Positions 2,165-25,109 of a stretch of DNA of 27,854 nt are shown here, in pieces (within the stretch, counting starts at the first letter, position 1; each line of letters starts with the position of its first letter). A program made the position numbers and the translations under genes. This DNA is from a virus. The DNA lies in the IMG/VR virus record IMGVR_UViG_3300021599_000584, positions 1 through 27,854 of that record. The stretch is one strand, 5' to 3'. The notes beneath the pieces were generated by a model. The model had not been told where the DNA came from. It worked only from the letters and a program-made list of their open reading frames with translations, and searched no databases.

Positions 2165-2501
2165 ATATCTGATTGGTCATTTAACTGAATTGGATGAAGA
2201 ACCAGCACTCTTCCTACAAAATTGTTATAAGATTGTTGAGTGTGCTGAGTATGGGGAAAATCCAGAATCTCTAGAAAAGAGAGCACACTCACTTGAAAAT
2301 GATCATGTTAAACTTTCCGCAAGGAAAATTGATGAGGGTGCTACCGATAAAGATTGGTATGTTTATGAGTATGCCATTCTTGAGGAGTTCCCCAAATACT
2401 CAGACCAACGAGACCTCTTCTTGACAACCGAATCGATCTTTACTATACTGGATCCGAAGGAGGACATCCTGAAGTTGTACAATCGTTGCCTGGGGAGTTG
2501 A
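2124..2501 (+). CDS. Unknown protein, paralogue of the upstream gene (copy 2)
   Basis: 125 aa. MTVKLLLLQQNPNEYLIGHL aligns with MSVKIVRLQ-NGEDVISDV of the gene before it, and LTTESIFTILDPKEDILKLY aligns with VRLDQIVTLYNPHEEILDRY. It has an extra middle insert of about 20 residues. The alignment supports the start at 2124 even though no ribosome site is visible; the 41-nt overlap implies coupled translation. The stop overlaps the gp43 start as TGATG. Function is unknown. Confidence 0.65.
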   Translation: MTVKLLLLQQNPNEYLIGHLTELDEEPALFLQNCYKIVECAEYGENPESLEKRAHSLENDHVKLSARKIDEGATDKDWYVYEYAILEEFPKYSDQRDLFLTTESIFTILDPKEDILKLYNRCLGS

Positions 2502-4327
2502 TGGATTTCTATACCAGTGTTGAATTAGTGGGGGATAAAATTCTCTATCGTGGGTATGAGGGTAAAGAACCTGTCACCTACAGAGAGAGTTTTACTCCCA
2601 CTCTTTTTGTGCCTACAAAAGGAGAATCTAAACACAAAACTTTGTATGGACAAAATGTAAAACCAATCAAGTTTGAATCTCCCAGAGAAGCACGGGAGTT
2701 CATTAAAAAGTATGATAAGATCGATGGATTTGAAGTCCATGGATATGAGAGGTTTGTGTATCAATATATCGCAGACAAATATCCTAAGCATGTAGACTAT
2801 GACTTTCAAACTCTTCAGATCTATACTATTGACATTGAGGTTGCATCTGAGAATGGATTCCCCGATGTAGAATCATCATCGGAAGAAGTTCTTTGTATTA
2901 CAATCAAAAATCTTAATACTAAAAAGGTGTTTACATGGGTGACCCGTGAGTTTGAAGCACCAAACAATGTTAATTTGTTCTTGTGTGATAATGAGCACAA
3001 GATGCTCCAGCATTTTATTCAGTGGTGGGCAGAGAATACACCAGATATTGTGACTGGATGGAACTGTAATCTATATGACATTCCTTATATTTGTCGTCGA
3101 ACGACAAGAATTCTAGGAGAGAAGTGGGCAAAGTCACTGTCCCCCTGGAATAAGATTACGGAGAATGAAATCTATATCAAAGGTCGTAAGCAAATTTCAT
3201 ATACTTTGCTGGGAGTTTCTATTCTCGATTACCTTGATTTGTATAAGAAGTTTACTTACACTAACCAGGAATCATATCGACTCGATCATATTGCGTTTGT
3301 TGAACTGGGGCAACGTAAGTTGGATCACAGTGAGTTTGAAAACTTTAGTGCATTCTATCGTAATGGTTGGCAGAGATTTGTAGAATACAACATCTTTGAC
3401 GTGGAACTTGTTGACCGTCTGGAAGACAAAATGAAACTGATTGAACTTGCTGTTGCCATGGCATACGATGCCAAGGTAAATTATGAGGATGTATATTCTC
3501 AGGTGCGTACTTGGGATACTCTTATCTTTAACTTCCTCAAGGAACAGAATCTGGTTGTGCCACCTAAGAAAGGTGCTCCCAATAAAGATGAGAAGTATGA
3601 GGGTGCGTATGTGAAAGAACCTATTCCTGGTTTGTATAATTGGGTTGTGAGTTTTGACTTGAACTCACTATATCCTCACTTGATTATGCAATATAACATC
3701 AGTCCTGAAACTCTACTGCCAACTAAACATCCATCTGCAACTGTAGATAGATTGCTACGGCAAGAGATTGAATTGTCCGAATTGAATAATTCAACTGTAT
3801 GTGCAAACGGTGCAATGTATGATACTAGGCACCAAGGATTCCTGCCTAAGATGATGCAGAAGATTTATGATGAACGCACCATCTATAAGAAACTAATGCT
3901 CGATGCTAAGAAAGAGTATGAAAAATCGAAAGACCCTGATCTAGTTAAAAAGATTGCCAAGTATAACAACATCCAGATGGTACGTAAGATTCAATTGAAC
4001 TCTGCTTATGGTGCTATTGGAAATCAATACTTCAGATATTACAATCTTCAGAATGCTGAGGCAATTACTTTGTCTGGTCAACTTTCGATTCGTTGGATCG
4101 AAAAGAAATTAAATGAATACCTAAACAAACATCTTCATACTGAGGATCAAGATTATGTTATTGCTATTGACACTGATTCTATTTACTTGTGCTTGGATCA
4201 TTTGGTTGACCGTGTATTCAAAGGGAGAGAGAAAAATGCTGAAAGCATTGTCACGTTCCTTGATAAGGTGTGTGGGATGGAACTTGAAAAGTATATTGAA
4301 ACATCTTATCAAACCTTGGCAACGTAA
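2501..4327 (+). CDS. gp43: DNA polymerase gp43, N-terminal part (gene broken at about 4322)
   Basis: Family B replicative polymerase of the T4 type, 608 aa before a premature stop. The start at 2501 has GGGGAG upstream. The exonuclease motif (IDIEVASE) is near residue 110, motif A (DLNSLYPHLI) near 386, motif B (KIQLNSAYGAIGN) near 495 and motif C (IDTDS) near 556. All the catalytic aspartates of motifs A and C are present. After YIETSYQTLAT the frame meets TAA, exactly where T4/RB69-type polymerases carry about 27-34 more residues leading into the KKRY primer-binding motif. That motif and the thumb continue in the +1 frame from 4323. The protein as written would lack its thumb, so it cannot be a normal replicase. 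The cause is unresolved: sequence fault or true lesion. Confidence 0.9.
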   Translation: MDFYTSVELVGDKILYRGYEGKEPVTYRESFTPTLFVPTKGESKHKTLYGQNVKPIKFESPREAREFIKKYDKIDGFEVHGYERFVYQYIADKYPKHVDYDFQTLQIYTIDIEVASENGFPDVESSSEEVLCITIKNLNTKKVFTWVTREFEAPNNVNLFLCDNEHKMLQHFIQWWAENTPDIVTGWNCNLYDIPYICRRTTRILGEKWAKSLSPWNKITENEIYIKGRKQISYTLLGVSILDYLDLYKKFTYTNQESYRLDHIAFVELGQRKLDHSEFENFSAFYRNGWQRFVEYNIFDVELVDRLEDKMKLIELAVAMAYDAKVNYEDVYSQVRTWDTLIFNFLKEQNLVVPPKKGAPNKDEKYEGAYVKEPIPGLYNWVVSFDLNSLYPHLIMQYNISPETLLPTKHPSATVDRLLRQEIELSELNNSTVCANGAMYDTRHQGFLPKMMQKIYDERTIYKKLMLDAKKEYEKSKDPDLVKKIAKYNNIQMVRKIQLNSAYGAIGNQYFRYYNLQNAEAITLSGQLSIRWIEKKLNEYLNKHLHTEDQDYVIAIDTDSIYLCLDHLVDRVFKGREKNAESIVTFLDKVCGMELEKYIETSYQTLAT

Positions 4328-4922
4328 GAAACGATACATTCTCAATGCCTGGGATATTGAAGGTGTTCGATTCACTGAACCAAAACTGAAGATCATGGGT
4401 ATTGAAGCAGTTAAATCTTCTACTCCTGCTCCCTGCCGTCAAAAGATTAAGGATGCACTCAAGATTATCATGACAAAAACTAATGATGATCTGATTAAAT
4501 TTATTGAAGAATTTAGAAATGAGTTTAAGAATCTTCCTGTAGATGAGATTGCATTTCCACGAAGTGCAAATAACCTAAAGAAGTTTTCAAGTAACTCTAC
4601 TATCTACGTTAAATCTACTCCAATTCATGTCCGTGGAGTTCTTCTATATAATTTTTACATTCGTAAAAATAAACTAACTCACAAGTATCCAATCATTCAG
4701 GATGGGGAGAAGATTAAGTTCATTATGCTTAGGACACCGAACAAGATCAATGAAAATGTTATTTCTTTTCTTCAGACATTTCCAACTGAATTGGGGCTTG
4801 ACAAATCGGTGGACTATGACCTACAATTTGAGAAAAGTTTCCTCGAACCCCTGAAAACTATTTTGGATATCATCGGTTGGAAAACCGAAAACATAAACAC
4901 CCTTGAATTCCTATTTGCCTAA
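4323..4922 (+). pseudogene. gp43: DNA polymerase gp43, C-terminal (KKRY and thumb) part, out of frame
   Basis: About 199 codons that continue gp43 in the +1 frame: KKRYILNAWDIEGVRF, then EPKLKIMGIEAVKSSTPAP, HVRGVLLYNFYI, and a C-terminus ending INTLEFLFA, close to the T4 end (SLDFLFG). That last peptide is the sliding-clamp binding tail. The fragment has no start of its own with a ribosome site; an open frame extends upstream to 4155, but that part is only a shadow of gp43. Together the two pieces give about 807 residues, short of the family length by the missing block. I treat it as one damaged gene with the 2501-4327 part. Confidence 0.88.
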
Positions 4923-16798: not shown

Positions 16799-17796
16799 AT
16801 TTTGTTGATGCGAAGTACGTTTCGTTACTTCAACCTCGTTTTGAAAAATTCGCAAAGAAAAAAGAGAATCTCTATAATCTTCGATGCCCTTATTGTGGTG
16901 ACTCACAAAAGCACAGGACTAAGGCACGAGGATATTTTTATGAACGAAAAGGTGACTACGTATATAAATGCCATAACTGTGGTGTAGGTAGAACACTTTC
17001 TAATTTCTTAAAGGAACATGCTGCAGATTTGCATTCTCAATACATCTTAGAAAGTTATAAAGAAACTTCGGTTGGTAAGGGAACCTATCGACCAGAACCG
17101 AAATTTACATTTGAAAAACCAAAGTTTCAACACAAAGAAGAAGGAATCATTCCTATAGACAAACTAAATAATGGACACCCAGCAGTTCAATATTTACTGT
17201 CACGAAAGATACCTCAAGAGAAATTCTCTGAGTTGTACTATGCAGAAAAATATAAGACTTGGGTAAATACACAAAAAGATACTTTCAAAGTAGTAGATCC
17301 TGATCATTCTAGGATTGTGATTCCACTAATATCAAATGGTGTTTGGTTTGGGTTTCAAGCACGTGCAATGAACCCTAGAAATCCACTGAGATATATTACA
17401 ACTATTTTGGATAGTGACCAACCAAAAATTTTTAATCTTGATGGTGTTAATTATGATGAACCTGTTTATGTAACAGAAGGACCAATTGATAGTCTATTTC
17501 TAGATAATGCAATTGCAATGGTTGGTGCAGATGTGGATTGGATGTTTGTTCTTGCTAACGAGTATACAGATTTTGTATTTGTATATGACAATGAACCAAG
17601 GAATCCACAAATTGTAAAACGTATGGAGACTATTATTGCTAGACAATATCCTATAGTTATTTGGCCAAAAACTATTAAAGAGAAGGATATTAATGAGATG
17701 GTTCTATCTGGACATGATGTTCAAAACGTGATAGAATCAAACACCTTTCAAGGTCTAGAAGCACAAATAAAACTCGCAGAATGGAAAAAGGTATGA
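16795..17796 (+). CDS. gp61: DNA primase gp61
   Basis: 333 aa, similar to T4 gp61 in length. The N-terminal zinc ribbon is complete: C31-x2-C34 (CPYCGDSQKH) and C59-x2-C62 (YKCHNCG). The TOPRIM catalytic part shows VYVTEGPIDSLFL (acidic Glu) and FVFVYDNEP (Asp), and KTIKEKDINEM follows. It makes RNA primers for lagging-strand synthesis and works with gp41. It overlaps the coiled-coil gene (ATGA) and ends over the start of nrdA, so the three genes are coupled. No defect is seen. Confidence 0.93.
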   Translation: MNFVDAKYVSLLQPRFEKFAKKKENLYNLRCPYCGDSQKHRTKARGYFYERKGDYVYKCHNCGVGRTLSNFLKEHAADLHSQYILESYKETSVGKGTYRPEPKFTFEKPKFQHKEEGIIPIDKLNNGHPAVQYLLSRKIPQEKFSELYYAEKYKTWVNTQKDTFKVVDPDHSRIVIPLISNGVWFGFQARAMNPRNPLRYITTILDSDQPKIFNLDGVNYDEPVYVTEGPIDSLFLDNAIAMVGADVDWMFVLANEYTDFVFVYDNEPRNPQIVKRMETIIARQYPIVIWPKTIKEKDINEMVLSGHDVQNVIESNTFQGLEAQIKLAEWKKV

Positions 17797-18665
17797 GCAA
17801 CGGTACAAAAGTTAAAAAAAGAAACGGTCAACTAGAGGGTCTGAATCTGGATAAGATTCATATTATGGTAGAACATGCTTGTGCAGATCTCTCTGGGGTT
17901 TCTGCTTCACAAGTAGAAATGCAATCTGGTATTCAATTTTACGATGGAATCACTACGGCAGAAATTCAAGAAATTTTGGTCAGATCAGCAAGTGATCTTA
18001 TTTCTCTTGACCATCCAAACTATCAGTTTGTTGCTGCTCGTCTTCTCCTGTTCGGTCTATATAAGCAAGTCTTTGGAGCTAATTGGAAAGTAGCATTCCC
18101 AGATGTTCATGATCATCTTACTGGTGGAGTCTCGTTGGGTATCTATGACTCAGAACTCCTTGGTAAATATTCTATGGATGAGTGGGATAAGATCAATACT
18201 TTTATTGATCATGATCGTGACTTTTTGTTCACATATGCAGGATTGCGTCAGGTTGTAGATAAATATCTTGTGCAGGATAGAAGCAATTCAAAAATTTATG
18301 AGACTCCTCAGTATGCATATATGCTTGTTTCAGCAACTATCTTTGCCGAATATCCTAAAGAGACACGTCTCACATATGTGAAGAAGTACTATGACGCAAT
18401 CAGCAAGCACAAGATCAACGTGCCCACTCCCATCCTCGCAGGAGTTAGGACACCACTTCGACAATTTGCGTCTTGTGTTCTTGTTGATAGTGATGACACC
18501 CTCGATAGCATCTTTACTAGTGACATGGCTATTGGTCGTTATGTTGCACAAAGGGCAGGAATCGGTATCAACGCAGGTCGAATCCGTGGTATCAACAGTA
18601 AGATCCGAGGGGGAGAAGTTACTCACACAGGTGTTATTCCATTCCATCCTAGTACTAAAAAATAA
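17793..18665 (+). CDS. nrdA: Ribonucleotide reductase class I large subunit NrdA, N-terminal part (frameshifted)
   Basis: 290 aa before a premature TAA. The ATP-cone (residues about 1-85, VKKRNGQLEGLNLDKIHI) and the start of the catalytic barrel are present, including the redox-active Cys in FASCVLVDSDDTLDSI and GIGINAGRIRGINSKIRGGE. The frame is correct through HTGVIPF (18644). It then loses register, and about 34 codons found in E. coli NrdA (the block with GGVRGGAAT) are absent before the ILVLKNNKG segment at 18646. The start is ATG 17793, overlapping the primase stop. Enzyme role: reduction of ribonucleoside diphosphates, with NrdB. Confidence 0.9.
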   Translation: MSNGTKVKKRNGQLEGLNLDKIHIMVEHACADLSGVSASQVEMQSGIQFYDGITTAEIQEILVRSASDLISLDHPNYQFVAARLLLFGLYKQVFGANWKVAFPDVHDHLTGGVSLGIYDSELLGKYSMDEWDKINTFIDHDRDFLFTYAGLRQVVDKYLVQDRSNSKIYETPQYAYMLVSATIFAEYPKETRLTYVKKYYDAISKHKINVPTPILAGVRTPLRQFASCVLVDSDDTLDSIFTSDMAIGRYVAQRAGIGINAGRIRGINSKIRGGEVTHTGVIPFHPSTKK

Positions 18666-19920
18666 TAAAGGAACCGAGGACAACCGTGTTCGTAAGTTAG
18701 ACTACAGTATCCAGATCAGCAAACTCTTCTATGAACGATTCATCCGTAACGAAGACATCTCACTCTTCTCCCCTCATGACGTTCCAGGTCTGTCTGATGC
18801 TTTTGGTCTTGCTGGATTTGACGAACTATATCTGGTTTACGAACGAGATCAGTCTATTCCAAGAAAGACTATCAATGCTCAAGAACTCATTCTGGACCTC
18901 CTGAAAGAACGTGCCGAGACTGGTCGCATCTATATCATGAACATCGACCACTGTAATGAGCATTCTTCTTTCAAGGATAAAGTTTGGATGAGCAACCTCT
19001 GCCAAGAGATTACTCTTCCCACCAAACCCCTCCAGCATATCGATGACCCAGAAGGTGAGATTGCCCTGTGTATTCTCTCTGCTGTTAACGTTGGTAAACT
19101 TAAGAACCTTGATGAACTAGAAGATCTTTGTGATCTCTCTGTTCGTGGTCTAGATGCACTGATTGATTATCAAGAGTATCCTGTAATTGCAGCAGAAAAT
19201 TCTACAAAGAATCGTCGTTCTCTTGGTATTGGATATATTGGTCTTGCACACTATCTTGCTCGTCATGGTGAGCACTATGATGATCCTCAAGCATGGAAAC
19301 TAGTTCATGATCTTACTGAAGCATTTCAGTATTATCTACTAAAATCATCCAATGAACTTGCTAAAGAGAAGGGTGCTTGTGGTTACTTTGATCGCACAAA
19401 GTATTCTGATGGTATTCTTCCAATCGACACCTACAAAAAAGATGTAGACGAAATCGTACCTAACGAGTTGAAATATGATTGGGAAACACTTAGAGCATCC
19501 ATCCTGGCTCACGGTCTCAGGAACTCAACACTGTCCGCACAAATGCCATCGGAGAGCAGTTCCGTTGTGTCAAATGCAACAAACGGAACTCTTAAGAACA
19601 ATTATACGTTACTCTGGGATATGCCTAGCAATACTGGCTACATTAACATTGTTGCTGTTATGCAAAAGTTCTTCGATCAAGCGATTTCTGGAAACTGGTC
19701 GTATAATCCAGAGAATTATGCCGATAATGAAGTTCCTACTTCGGTAATGGCACAAGATTTTCTGAATACATATAAGTACGGTTGGAAAACCTCTTACTAT
19801 CAAAATACATATGATGCTAAGAAGGATGCTGATTCTGACACCAATGAAGAGAAACTAAAAGCATTGCTTGATGATTTGAGTTTGGCAGGTGAAGAAGATT
19901 GTGATTCATGTAAAGTTTAA
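18646..19920 (+). pseudogene. nrdA: NrdA C-terminal part, in a different frame
   Basis: 424 codons from ILVLKNNKGTEDNR to the end. Catalytic residues are visible: SNLCQE (Asn, thiyl-radical Cys and Glu), the second redox Cys in GEIALCILSAVN, the paired Tyr in SYYQNTYD, and the C-terminal Cys pair DCDSCKV that accepts electrons from thioredoxin or glutaredoxin. A second gap is seen at about 19587: NATNG is followed by TLKNNYTLLW, whereas E. coli has about 26 additional residues between these blocks. That gap keeps the frame. There is no plausible start codon for this fragment alone; an open frame to 18391 is a shadow of the first part. Confidence 0.88.
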
Positions 19921-19931
19921 GGGAGAAATCA

Positions 19932-21074
19932 ATGGTAGAAGGTATGACAGTTTTCAATACTGAAAAGGTTGAGACTAAGAAACAACCCATGTTCTTTGGT
20001 GCTCCCTTGGGAGTTCAACGTTATGATGGATTTAAATATCCTGTATTTGATAAACTTACGGAGACACAAACTGCATATTTCTGGAGACCCCAGGAGGTCT
20101 CCCTCCAAAAGGATCGTGCTGATTATCAACAACTACGTTCTGAACAGAAGCATATCTTTACTTCTAATCTGAAGTATCAGATTCTGCTTGATTCTGTTCA
20201 GGGTCGTGGTCCAGGAATTGCATTTATTCCATATTGCTCTCTTCCTGAACTGGAAGCATGTATGGAAGTGTGGGGATTCATGGAAATGATTCACTCACGT
20301 TCTTACACATACATCATCAAAAATGTTTACTCTGATCCTAGTGAGGTGTTTGATAAAATTTTAGATGATGAAAATATTTTGAGAAGAGCAAAAAGTGTAA
20401 CGAAAGCATATGATGAATTCATTCGTGCTGCACAAGATTACTCTTCTGGAAATCAGTGGCAACATCAATTAGAAGGTGTTCCTGCTGCTAAAGAAACTTT
20501 GTACGAATTGAAGAGGAAACTCTATCGTGCAATCATGAATGTTAACATCTTAGAGGGGATTAGGTTCTATGTTTCGTTTGCTTGCAGCTTTGCGTTTGGT
20601 GAACTCAAACTCATGGAAGGATCAGCTAAAATTATCTCTCTCATCGCAAGAGACGAAAGCCAGCATCTTGTCATCACACAAAATATTATCAAGAACTGGA
20701 ATAACGGGGATGACCCAGACATGCACCAAATTGCTCAAGAAGAGCAAGAAAACGTTTATCAAATGTTTAGAGAAACTGTAGATGAAGAAAAAGCATGGGC
20801 AGAATATCTATTCAAAGACGGATCTATGATTGGTCTGAATGATAAACTACTTGGTCAATATGTTGAATGGGTTGCCAACCGTCGTATGAAGGCAATTGGA
20901 TTAAAACCAATTTATGATGTACCTCAAAATAATAATCCTCTTCCATGGACCGAGCATTGGTTGAATTCTAAGATGATGCAGAATGCTCCTCAAGAAACTG
21001 AGATCGAATCTTATGTTATTGGTGGGATTAAACAAGACGTAAAAACTGATACATTTGCAGGATTTAAACTATGA
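19932..21074 (+). CDS. nrdB: Ribonucleotide reductase class I small subunit NrdB
   Basis: 380 aa, full length and intact. Iron ligands can be traced: the Glu in SLPELEACMEVWGF and MEMIHSRSY (E and H), the Glu in NILEGIRFYVSFAC, and E/H in ARDESQHLVI. The C-terminal tail (VIGGIKQDVKTDTFAGFKL) is the NrdA-binding peptide. It houses the di-iron tyrosyl-radical cofactor for class Ia reduction. GGGAG lies 9 nt ahead of the ATG, 11 nt after the nrdA stop. It ends in an ATGA overlap with the lysozyme gene. Confidence 0.95.
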   Translation: MVEGMTVFNTEKVETKKQPMFFGAPLGVQRYDGFKYPVFDKLTETQTAYFWRPQEVSLQKDRADYQQLRSEQKHIFTSNLKYQILLDSVQGRGPGIAFIPYCSLPELEACMEVWGFMEMIHSRSYTYIIKNVYSDPSEVFDKILDDENILRRAKSVTKAYDEFIRAAQDYSSGNQWQHQLEGVPAAKETLYELKRKLYRAIMNVNILEGIRFYVSFACSFAFGELKLMEGSAKIISLIARDESQHLVITQNIIKNWNNGDDPDMHQIAQEEQENVYQMFRETVDEEKAWAEYLFKDGSMIGLNDKLLGQYVEWVANRRMKAIGLKPIYDVPQNNNPLPWTEHWLNSKMMQNAPQETEIESYVIGGIKQDVKTDTFAGFKL

Positions 21075-21661
21075 CTGTACCCGCACCAGGACTATCCATC
21101 ATTAAACAATTTGAAGGATGTCATTTAAAAGCATATCCAGATCCTCTTTCTGGTGGGTTGCCAATCACAATTGGTTGGGGAACTACCCGTAAGAAAGATG
21201 GATCTCCATTTAAATTGGGTGATACAATCACCCAACAAGAAGCAGATGATTTACTCATCTCACAATGTGAAACTCAATTCATTCCAGCACTAAAGAAAAT
21301 TCCACACTGGAGTGAAATGACACCAGAGCAGCAAGGTGCTATCCTAAGTTTTGCTTATAACTTAGGTGCAGGATTTTATGGTGATAGAAGTAATTTCAAT
21401 TCTATCACTACTGCACTTTCGTCCAAAGCAAACTGGAAGGATGTACCTGCTGCTCTTTATAAGTATAGGAACCCAGGCACGAATGTTGAGGCAGGATTGG
21501 CTCGACGCAGAACTGCTGAGGGTGAATTATGGAAGAAAGGTTTAGCAAACTCAACAAACGTAACACCACAAAAGGAGTTTAAAATGTCTAAGTACTACTT
21601 AATTTCTTTAAGTTTTATGATGAAAATAATGCCAACCATGTTGCTGCAGTTGGTCTATTAG
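21071..21661 (+). CDS. GH24-type lysozyme (T4 lysozyme family), reading on into the next gene
   Basis: The muramidase domain covers residues 1-165. FEGCHLKAYPDPL and ITIGWGTT carry the catalytic Glu, Asp and Thr pattern of GH24. TPEQQGAILSFAYNLGAG is the usual central block, and NPGTNVEAGLARRRTAEGEL is the family's C-terminal signature. It cleaves peptidoglycan glycan strands. No stop follows the domain: the frame runs through a Thr/Asn linker (NSTNVTPQKEFK) directly into the ATG of the C39 peptidase in the same frame and ends at 21661 only because of a one-base frameshift. The intended product may thus be a lysozyme-peptidase fusion. Confidence 0.88.
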   Translation: MTVPAPGLSIIKQFEGCHLKAYPDPLSGGLPITIGWGTTRKKDGSPFKLGDTITQQEADDLLISQCETQFIPALKKIPHWSEMTPEQQGAILSFAYNLGAGFYGDRSNFNSITTALSSKANWKDVPAALYKYRNPGTNVEAGLARRRTAEGELWKKGLANSTNVTPQKEFKMSKYYLISLSFMMKIMPTMLLQLVY

Positions 21662-22437
21662 AAGCATCGATTCCTGAGCACCTCAAGCAAGATTCCCCAT
21701 GGGTGGTTGCTTATCGTGGAGGCAATGCTGCAGGTGGTCCTGTGGATCTCCACAAGTTCTTTGAGTTCTTCTCAGAACGCAATGCAGGGCACGTGGAGGG
21801 GGTCAGTCTGCTAGAGGAAGCAATGCGTCAGACGGACCCCGACTGCCTCGTAGACGACGGTGCAGGTGGTGCTCAGGATGCTGCATGGATCGAGAAGTAC
21901 CGTAGCAAGCCACCCATCCCACCTATCCTAGCAGTACCATACTTTAACCAGGTGGATAACTATCGTGATGCCCATAGAACATGCAACTCATCCTCATGTG
22001 CAATGTGCCTTGAGTTCCTCAAGCCAGGTACTCTCAAGGGTGCTAAGGGTGATGATGCGTATGTCACGAAGGTATTTGCGATTGGTGATACTACTGACCA
22101 TTCGGTTCAGACGAAGGTTCTTGCGTCGTATGGTATCAAGTCCCATTTCTCATACAATCTTTCTTTTGCTGATCTGGATAAGTCCCTTGCTGCTGGTAAG
22201 CCCGTGGTTATTGGTATTCTCCACCGTGGTTCTCTTAGTGCTCCTACTGGTGGACACATGTGTGTAGTTATCGGTAAGAAGGGTGATGGATATGTCGTGA
22301 ATGATCCCTATGGTTCATGCAACGATGGTTATACTGGTCCTGTAACTAACGGTAAAGGTGCTGTATACAGCAGAGCAATGCTCAAAGCACGTTGGTGTCC
22401 TGGTGGCAACGACGGCTGGGGCAGAATCTTTGACTGA
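21584..22437 (+). pseudogene. C39-like cysteine peptidase, frameshifted near 21601
   Basis: Starts at ATG 21584 with AAGGAG upstream. The first residues (MSKYYL) are in the lysozyme frame. The rest (NFFKFYDENNANHVAAVGLL, then IPEHLKQDSPWVVAYRGG) continues in another frame, so one base is missing at about 21601. The C-terminal domain is a papain-like C39-type peptidase: the Cys in RTCNSSSCAM, the His in GGHMCVVIG, and the Asp in VVNDPYG. With the lysozyme upstream it could cleave peptidoglycan peptides. Without the frame defect the protein would be about 284 aa. Codon use is GC-rich compared with the rest of the window. Confidence 0.8.
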
Positions 22438-22786: not shown

Positions 22787-23221
22787 ATGGTAGATAAGGA
22801 AAATCCTTGGATGTATAATTCAGAAGTTTTTGAATCGGATCACATTCAAGATTATTTTGGTTTTGTTTATCATATACACTGCCGTTCAACTGGTAGGTCT
22901 TACATTGGTAGAAAATATTTCTGGAGTTTCAAGACACCGAAAGGAAAATCTAGAAAGGTTAAATCAGAGTCTGACTGGAAAAAGTATTATGGATCCTGTC
23001 CAGAACTTAAAGCAGACATTAACGTTTGGGGAAAAACATCCTGCGACAGAAGAATACTTAGCCTCCATAAAACAAAAGGACAATGTAACTTTGAAGAAAC
23101 AAAACAACTCTTCTTAAATAATGTTCTGACAGAAGCCTTGACAGATGGGACCCCTGCCTACTATAATTCCAACATCCTCGGCAGGTACATGAGGAAGGAT
23201 TACTTCAATCCAACCCCTTGA
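22787..23221 (+). CDS. GIY-YIG-like putative endonuclease
   Basis: 144 aa. YFGFVYHIHCRSTGRSYIGRKYF matches the layout of a GIY-YIG core (a Tyr strand, about ten residues, then YIG with a following Arg). A Glu in CNFEETKQLFLNNV and the YYNSNILGRY Asn block are in the order expected for the metal-binding and C-terminal parts. Such nucleases often act in homing or host DNA damage; here it may be a stand-alone free endonuclease. AAGGAG upstream, its own sigma70 promoter, and the first gene after a terminator. Confidence 0.65.
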   Translation: MVDKENPWMYNSEVFESDHIQDYFGFVYHIHCRSTGRSYIGRKYFWSFKTPKGKSRKVKSESDWKKYYGSCPELKADINVWGKTSCDRRILSLHKTKGQCNFEETKQLFLNNVLTEALTDGTPAYYNSNILGRYMRKDYFNPTP

Positions 23222-23719: not shown

Positions 23720-24153
23720 ACTTCAATATCGTTGGACAATACTTGAATCAAAAACAAGCATTTTCTAACCCTGCTTATTATGCCATGATTCGTGTCATCT
23801 ATAAGCAGATTGAAGGCAATAAACTGCAATCGGAAAATTGGTACGAGTATATGTTCCCTGATGGGGAACCATATAAAAAAGAGTACCATACATATGAAAC
23901 AATATCATCTAATGAAGTTGAATTTCAATCCTATGATATGGATTGGCAACCCACTTGTAAATTTAAATTCACCTGGGATGGAACTTTTTGGGTTGCATCC
24001 CCCTGTGGTGAATGTATTGTAAAGGGTGTAAAAATCGAAAGTGTGGCAAAGTTTAATGACTCTGTATACATTTCCGAAGATGTAGGGTATGATAAAGATG
24101 GTAATATAGTATTTGGTCGAGTAGGAATGCCATTTGTGTTTGATAGATTATGA
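23716..24153 (+). CDS. Unknown accessory protein
   Basis: 145 aa from ATG 23716. A GTG at 23698 would add six residues, but the ATGA junction with the preceding small frame favours 23716. The N-terminus is helical (NPAYYAMIRVIYKQIEGN), then the protein looks beta-rich with many aromatic residues (NWYEYMFPDGEPYKKEYHTY, CKFKFTWDGTFWVASPCG). No enzyme motif is recognised. It overlaps the next gene by ATGA, so the two probably act as a pair. Probably an early accessory gene of the tRNA region. Confidence 0.7.
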   Translation: MNFNIVGQYLNQKQAFSNPAYYAMIRVIYKQIEGNKLQSENWYEYMFPDGEPYKKEYHTYETISSNEVEFQSYDMDWQPTCKFKFTWDGTFWVASPCGECIVKGVKIESVAKFNDSVYISEDVGYDKDGNIVFGRVGMPFVFDRL

Positions 24154-25109
24154 CAGATATTCCCATCTACAATAATAAAGGTATTCAAATAAATTCAGTT
24201 TTTATTCCTGAAGATATTGAATACGTTAATGGTAGAGTTTGTAAGGGTAAAGACTTTTACTACAAAGGAGTAGGAGTTCCATACAAAGTTCATTTACTTC
24301 CTTCTGATCTAATGACGGATGAATATGAACTTGTGGATGTATCTGATATTTTTTATCTTGGCAATATTGTCAGTAAGAAATGCTATCAACACAAATTTGG
24401 CATCTTCCAAGAAAGGCACCAAAATCATTTCACTGATTGGATCGGTGCCTGTGGAATTAAAGAATTGAATATTCTAGAAAACTTATACGACGAAAATGGT
24501 TTTGAACTTAGTGCTATTGAAGTTCTAGGTTATGAAACTATCGATGAAGAGAATCAGCAGTATTATTTGAAGGTAAACTATCCTGGTGGTAGACTTAATT
24601 ACTTAGATAACCCAGATCCTAAAAAACTGAGATCTCTAATTGATTATATGATCACTAACAATTGGAACTTTCCATGGGATAAAAATTCAATATCTGATAT
24701 TTCTTCAGACTCTTTAGTTACAGATGTTGCTGATATCTTTCACTCAAAGGATATTCAAAATAAAATCGGTAGTGTTTACTCTGTATTACATAGTTTGGCA
24801 AAGAAAGATTTTAATGAGTATTTAAAATTCTGTAAGGTTAATAATCTTCAACATCTAGATGATACTTGGTTTGTATTCAATACACTATACCTTCTTACTT
24901 TTTCTGGTGAAAATGTAGTACATCTCTTTGATTCATCTCCACAAGAAACATACAAAAATATTGTTAGTAATTATCTTGTTACTGGAAAGAATTGTGGTTT
25001 CTGTGGAATAGGAAGTTGTAAGGGAAGAAAGGATGCAAACCAAACATACGGGGAAGAGATTAGAGATACATATATTGAACTAACAGAAAAACAGTTTTCT
25101 GTCTCTTGA
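24150..25109 (+). CDS. Unknown 319-aa accessory protein with a C-terminal Cys cluster
   Basis: No family recognised. The N-terminal part is beta-rich (IYNNKGIQINSVFIPEDIEY). A middle charged section has YLKVNYPGGRLNYLDNPDPK, and the C-terminal helical part ends near CGFCGIGSCKGRKD, a C-x2-C-x4-C cluster that might bind a metal. AT-rich with many Asp/Asn. It starts in an ATGA overlap. The stop TGA lies in the TTGACA of the following tRNA promoter, after a perfect 8-bp hairpin ACAGAAAA / TTTTCTGT (25083-25102). Confidence 0.68.
   Translation: MTDIPIYNNKGIQINSVFIPEDIEYVNGRVCKGKDFYYKGVGVPYKVHLLPSDLMTDEYELVDVSDIFYLGNIVSKKCYQHKFGIFQERHQNHFTDWIGACGIKELNILENLYDENGFELSAIEVLGYETIDEENQQYYLKVNYPGGRLNYLDNPDPKKLRSLIDYMITNNWNFPWDKNSISDISSDSLVTDVADIFHSKDIQNKIGSVYSVLHSLAKKDFNEYLKFCKVNNLQHLDDTWFVFNTLYLLTFSGENVVHLFDSSPQETYKNIVSNYLVTGKNCGFCGIGSCKGRKDANQTYGEEIRDTYIELTEKQFSVS

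Follow-up and report, generated by a model that had tools for sequence, protein, structure and literature searches.

The gp43 break in a cyanophage metagenome contig is very probably a local assembly error

Two pieces of gp43 separated by a missing block

We asked whether a cyanophage could really carry a broken replicase gene, or whether the break belonged to the contig in which it was seen. The window, which is the whole stretch of 27,854 nucleotides analysed here, contained gp43 (family B DNA polymerase) on the plus strand in two pieces. The first piece (2501-4327) gave Pfam matches to DNA_pol_B_exo1 and DNA_pol_B, and its exonuclease and polymerase domains were aligned with solved T4-type phage polymerases, as expected for a T4-type family B enzyme. 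It closed with a TAA at 4325-4327. The last piece (4326-4922, plus strand) was read in the +1 frame, and no Pfam match was found for it alone. Two contigs, L002 (IMGVR_UViG_3300008113_000104) and L003 (IMGVR_UViG_3300008108_000832), represent the same phage and were compared with the window. The 198 residues of the last piece were 100% identical to both, and the alignment placed a junction at 4326-4327 (plus strand, 2-nt ambiguity) where 71 nt were absent from the window. Loss of these 71 nt between the flanking pieces resulted in a false junction and, immediately past it, a false stop.

The gap length is 2 modulo 3 and corresponded to about 24 codons. These results agreed with the preliminary description, which had proposed a change to the +1 frame and a deletion of 2 modulo 3 that was not a clean in-frame variant. 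It had also put the loss at about 27 codons; the loss itself was real in the window, but its size was overestimated. When the lost block was sought elsewhere in the window, the best matches were of 11-14 bases only. RB69-type gp43 had 8 more residues in the stretch of the loss.

The intact gene in the same phage and in its relatives

The two contigs differed from the window by few substitutions over about 12.2 kb, 16 in L002 and 13 in L003. In L002, gp43 was a single intact ORF of 830 residues, and L003 carried the identical 71 extra bases at this site. The intact 31-mer at the site was found in two viral contigs, which were L002 and L003, and the exact 34-base junction of the window was found in 0 other viral contigs (the scan may omit the window's own record). 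Since nearly identical copies of the phage have the intact gene, the break in gp43 appeared to be ordinary. It had been implied that the phage has no thumb or clamp-binding tail on its only replicase. This consequence was not supported, because the same phage retained the 71 bases in L002 and L003. The alternative of an assembly fault, which had been raised together with it, almost certainly applies, as the intact longer sequence was present in these contigs (contigs, not reads).

A wider comparison was performed with 160 gp43 sequences, consisting of the best 80 loci of one scan, 78 of the best 80 loci of a second scan (the remaining 2 were already in the first set) and 2 isolate phages; at least 5 contigs were counted twice in the 160. 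The block was found in 159 of them, and the exception, L034, stopped upstream of it. With the exception of L034, which stops earlier, every locus of the first scan (79 of 80) had the block free of gaps and stops, as had all 80 loci of the second scan and the 2 isolate phages. Among the 25 aligned positions of the missing block, 10 were invariant to two decimals in the 159 sequences. As the block was present in 159 of 160 sequences and the other one stopped earlier, its absence from the window exceeded what chance would give. Comparison with gp43 of T4-like cyanophages, which had been suggested at the outset, gave the same picture. In the Synechococcus phages S-CREM1 and S-SSM4, gp43 was similar to that of the window and was a single polymerase CDS. 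Both contained the 24-residue block, in contrast to the window. The gene order of S-CREM1, with polymerase, UvsX-type recombinase and 2OG-Fe(II) oxygenase, was the same as that of the window.

A gp43 coding sequence in two pieces is not in itself foreign to T4 relatives. According to PMC2988022, split gp43 and split nrdA genes are known and functional in this group, and Aeromonas phages 25 and 44RR carry gp43 as genes 43A and 43B. The window resembled these phages in having two pieces. However, in the cases described there an insertion separates the pieces, whereas here about 24 residues, with their invariant positions, were gone from the DNA. The coding sequence remained incomplete across the two pieces, the missing DNA was nowhere else in the window, and an intact copy of the gene existed in the same phage. 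A natural polymerase of two polypeptides is therefore hardly credible. The same applies to recoding, in which a programmed frameshift or a ribosome hop would link the two frames. In favour of this reading, the frames come together at the junction, with the stop immediately behind it. But recoding cannot supply residues that are absent from the DNA and that the same-phage contigs encode, and we gave it next to no weight.

Two further gaps in nrdA

The gene for the large subunit of ribonucleotide reductase, nrdA, was also broken in the window. It was compared with G001, the record behind L002, which served as the reference for the window beyond gp43 and in which nrdA was an ORF of 768 residues. 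The first piece in the window (17796-18665, plus strand) matched the Pfam domains ATP-cone and Ribonuc_red_lgN and the start of Ribonuc_red_lgC, and was out of frame past 18645. Alignment to G001 placed a second false junction at 18645-18646 (plus strand), where 101 nt were absent and the frame was broken. The last piece (18646-19920, plus strand) matched Ribonuc_red_lgC and contained a third false junction at 19588-19589 (plus strand), where 78 nt were absent in frame. From 17700 to 19950, zero substitutions separated the window from G001 apart from the two gaps.

Both nrdA blocks were intact in relatives. We compared 82 loci, of which L129 and L135 had no nrdA match, 17 did not span the first block and 1 did not span the second. 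The first block was present without gap or stop in all 63 spanning loci, and the second in all 79. Neither of the nrdA junctions was found in any other viral contig. In five relatives (L137, L213, L219, L224 and L239), the nrdA match was interrupted by about 0.9-1.2 kb, and in most of them residues of about 424-437 were matched on both flanks. This interruption is perhaps an intron, an intein or a split gene.

Length losses between near-identical sister contigs

Pairs of near-identical contigs were drawn from the best 80 gp43 loci and the window, with at most 0.5% substitutions and at least 3 kb aligned. An event was a length difference of at least 20 nt, with a match floor of 40 bases. We take the 3300008xxx records to be Lake Erie bloom samples. 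The window was counted with this group, although its membership of the series is one that we infer. Length differences were seen in 8 of the 14 pairs of 3300008xxx contigs, window included, compared with 1 of the 23 pairs from other records; the contigs were grouped by record number post hoc, after the losses were known. Fisher's test on these pairs gave 6e-4, although some contigs occur in more than one pair, which makes the pairs non-independent. The single control event was in L035/L036, with 35 against 3 unmatched bases (a 32-nt difference) after a 124-base match; the control count became 0 of 23 when matches shorter than 200 bases were dropped. Substitutions were alike in the two groups, with 121 in 145 kb for the 3300008xxx pairs and 118 in 182 kb for the others. 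Among mixed pairs, 1 of 7 showed a loss, and it lay in the 3300008xxx member, L061. Six 3300008xxx pairs had no such loss, for example L051/L058.

The 3300008xxx events amounted to 17 pair-events with 8 distinct lengths (51, 71, 182, 189, 194, 211, 299 and 371 nt), of which only 51 and 189 are multiples of 3. Homology at the junctions was 0-2 nt. The near-identical contigs L058/L061, L012/L013 and L057/L058 showed losses of 182-371 nt. Some losses disrupted frames that were intact in the sister contig; among these, the 371-nt loss in L061 cut a 356-codon frame of L058, and the 194-nt loss in L057 cut a 267-codon frame. Other losses were in frame or fused two frames. L056 was identical to L057 across 10,201 bases and stopped there, and L057 resumed without 194 nt that were present in L058. 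Because L056 stopped exactly at the skip in L057, the latter looked like separate contigs that had been joined with the loss of intervening sequence.

These comparisons also bear on whether the 71-bp deletion is real and faithfully assembled, in a defective subpopulation sustained by co-infecting intact phage. Illegitimate recombination can produce a clean join of this kind, with 2 nt of homology, and the record was without any N. However, one contig with few substitutions would need to have undergone three or more distinct losses, spread over two replication genes; such losses were in excess in one record series, and the three junctions occurred in no other viral contig. We consider a real deletion improbable. 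Its more far-reaching form would be an abundant defective freshwater cyanophage in which parts of both the replicase and the ribonucleotide reductase are deleted and which depends on co-infection with intact siblings; this is more improbable still.

Assembly as the probable source of the breaks

In contrast to these alternatives, we hold with high confidence that a local assembly error in a metagenome contig accounts for the apparent gp43 deletion, and that the phage itself has an ordinary, intact gp43 of the cyanophage type. The main evidence was the intact contigs of the same phage and the additional gaps in nrdA. At gp43, the window was contradicted by the independent assemblies L002 and L003. 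The two nrdA losses in the contig, together with like losses in the sister contigs (8/14 against 1/23 pairs), indicated an assembly fault. Judged from the sequences, the gp43 feature is real in the DNA as given and would very probably be absent from the phage. The two flanking pieces would have been joined and the 71 nt between them dropped. Read-pair scaffolding was probably the joining step, and joining or scaffolding would be the point at which the sequence is dropped.

The positions at which other contigs end were examined among the best 80 loci. Upstream contigs that ended inside nrdA did so at aa 275-319 in 9 of 25 cases, with the range set post hoc around the missing block (aa 284-318). 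Downstream contigs ended at nrdA aa 280-312 in 6 of 12 cases, with a query biased towards ends at or beyond aa 280 and a range likewise set post hoc. The first nrdA gap appears to be a place where assemblies tend to break. For gp43, 0 of 13 contigs that started inside the gene did so at aa 609-633, and this lack of clustering at the gap counts against an assembly fault.

The reason why assembly would fail at these particular places was only partly shown. Folding energies of 10 missing segments were compared with those of 100 random segments each. The fractions of random segments as stable or more ranged from 0.02 to 0.84 (0.18 for the gp43 block), and drop-out at hairpins was not supported as a general cause. 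The k-mers shared with other contigs were also compared; an excess was seen for the nrdA block of 101 nt and for two L061 blocks, whereas the gp43 block showed none. Not every site was accounted for by hairpins or by shared k-mers.

Local assembly errors are described in PMC7111523, where they are suspected to be prominent in IDBA-UD assemblies. The window resembled them in having a join that is contradicted by relatives and in having broken protein-coding genes. It differed in that the errors set out in that paper are defined by lacking read support, whereas the window was judged from contigs. PMC5647855 reports the use of IDBA-UD (k 52-92) to assemble Microcystis isolates from the Great Lakes; those are isolate genomes, and the contigs studied here are from metagenomes. 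That IDBA-UD produced the present contigs is a guess. A literature search returned no described assembly tied to these record numbers.

Read in this way, the gp43 break alters nothing in the understanding of phage biology. In some contigs of the 3300008xxx series there seem to be silent joins, unmarked by any N, at which about 50-370 bases were dropped and conserved genes were broken. Where a gene in such a contig looks split or frameshifted, it should first be checked against sister contigs and only then interpreted.

Other differences and open reading frames in the window

Several smaller differences were kept out of the argument for an assembly fault. An in-frame difference in a small ORF at 2123/2124, where the window was 12 nt shorter than L002 and L003, may be natural variation. 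Single-base differences from G001/L002 at about 987 and at 21590 may also be natural. At 22787-22800 (about 22798), the window was a net 180 nt shorter than G001; a small ORF was gone and two similar gene starts were joined. This difference could come from natural recombination instead of an assembly fault.

For the 319-residue ORF at 24150-25109, a PHROG match was not found at E 0.001. The protein encoded at 22787-23221 matched phrog_447, whose label of NAD synthetase may be incorrect, and gave weaker matches to two families of homing endonucleases. Two adjoining lysis ORFs (21071-21661 and 21703-22437) matched opposite halves of phrog_3617 in swapped order, and the 1-nt difference from G001 at 21590 lay in the first of them.
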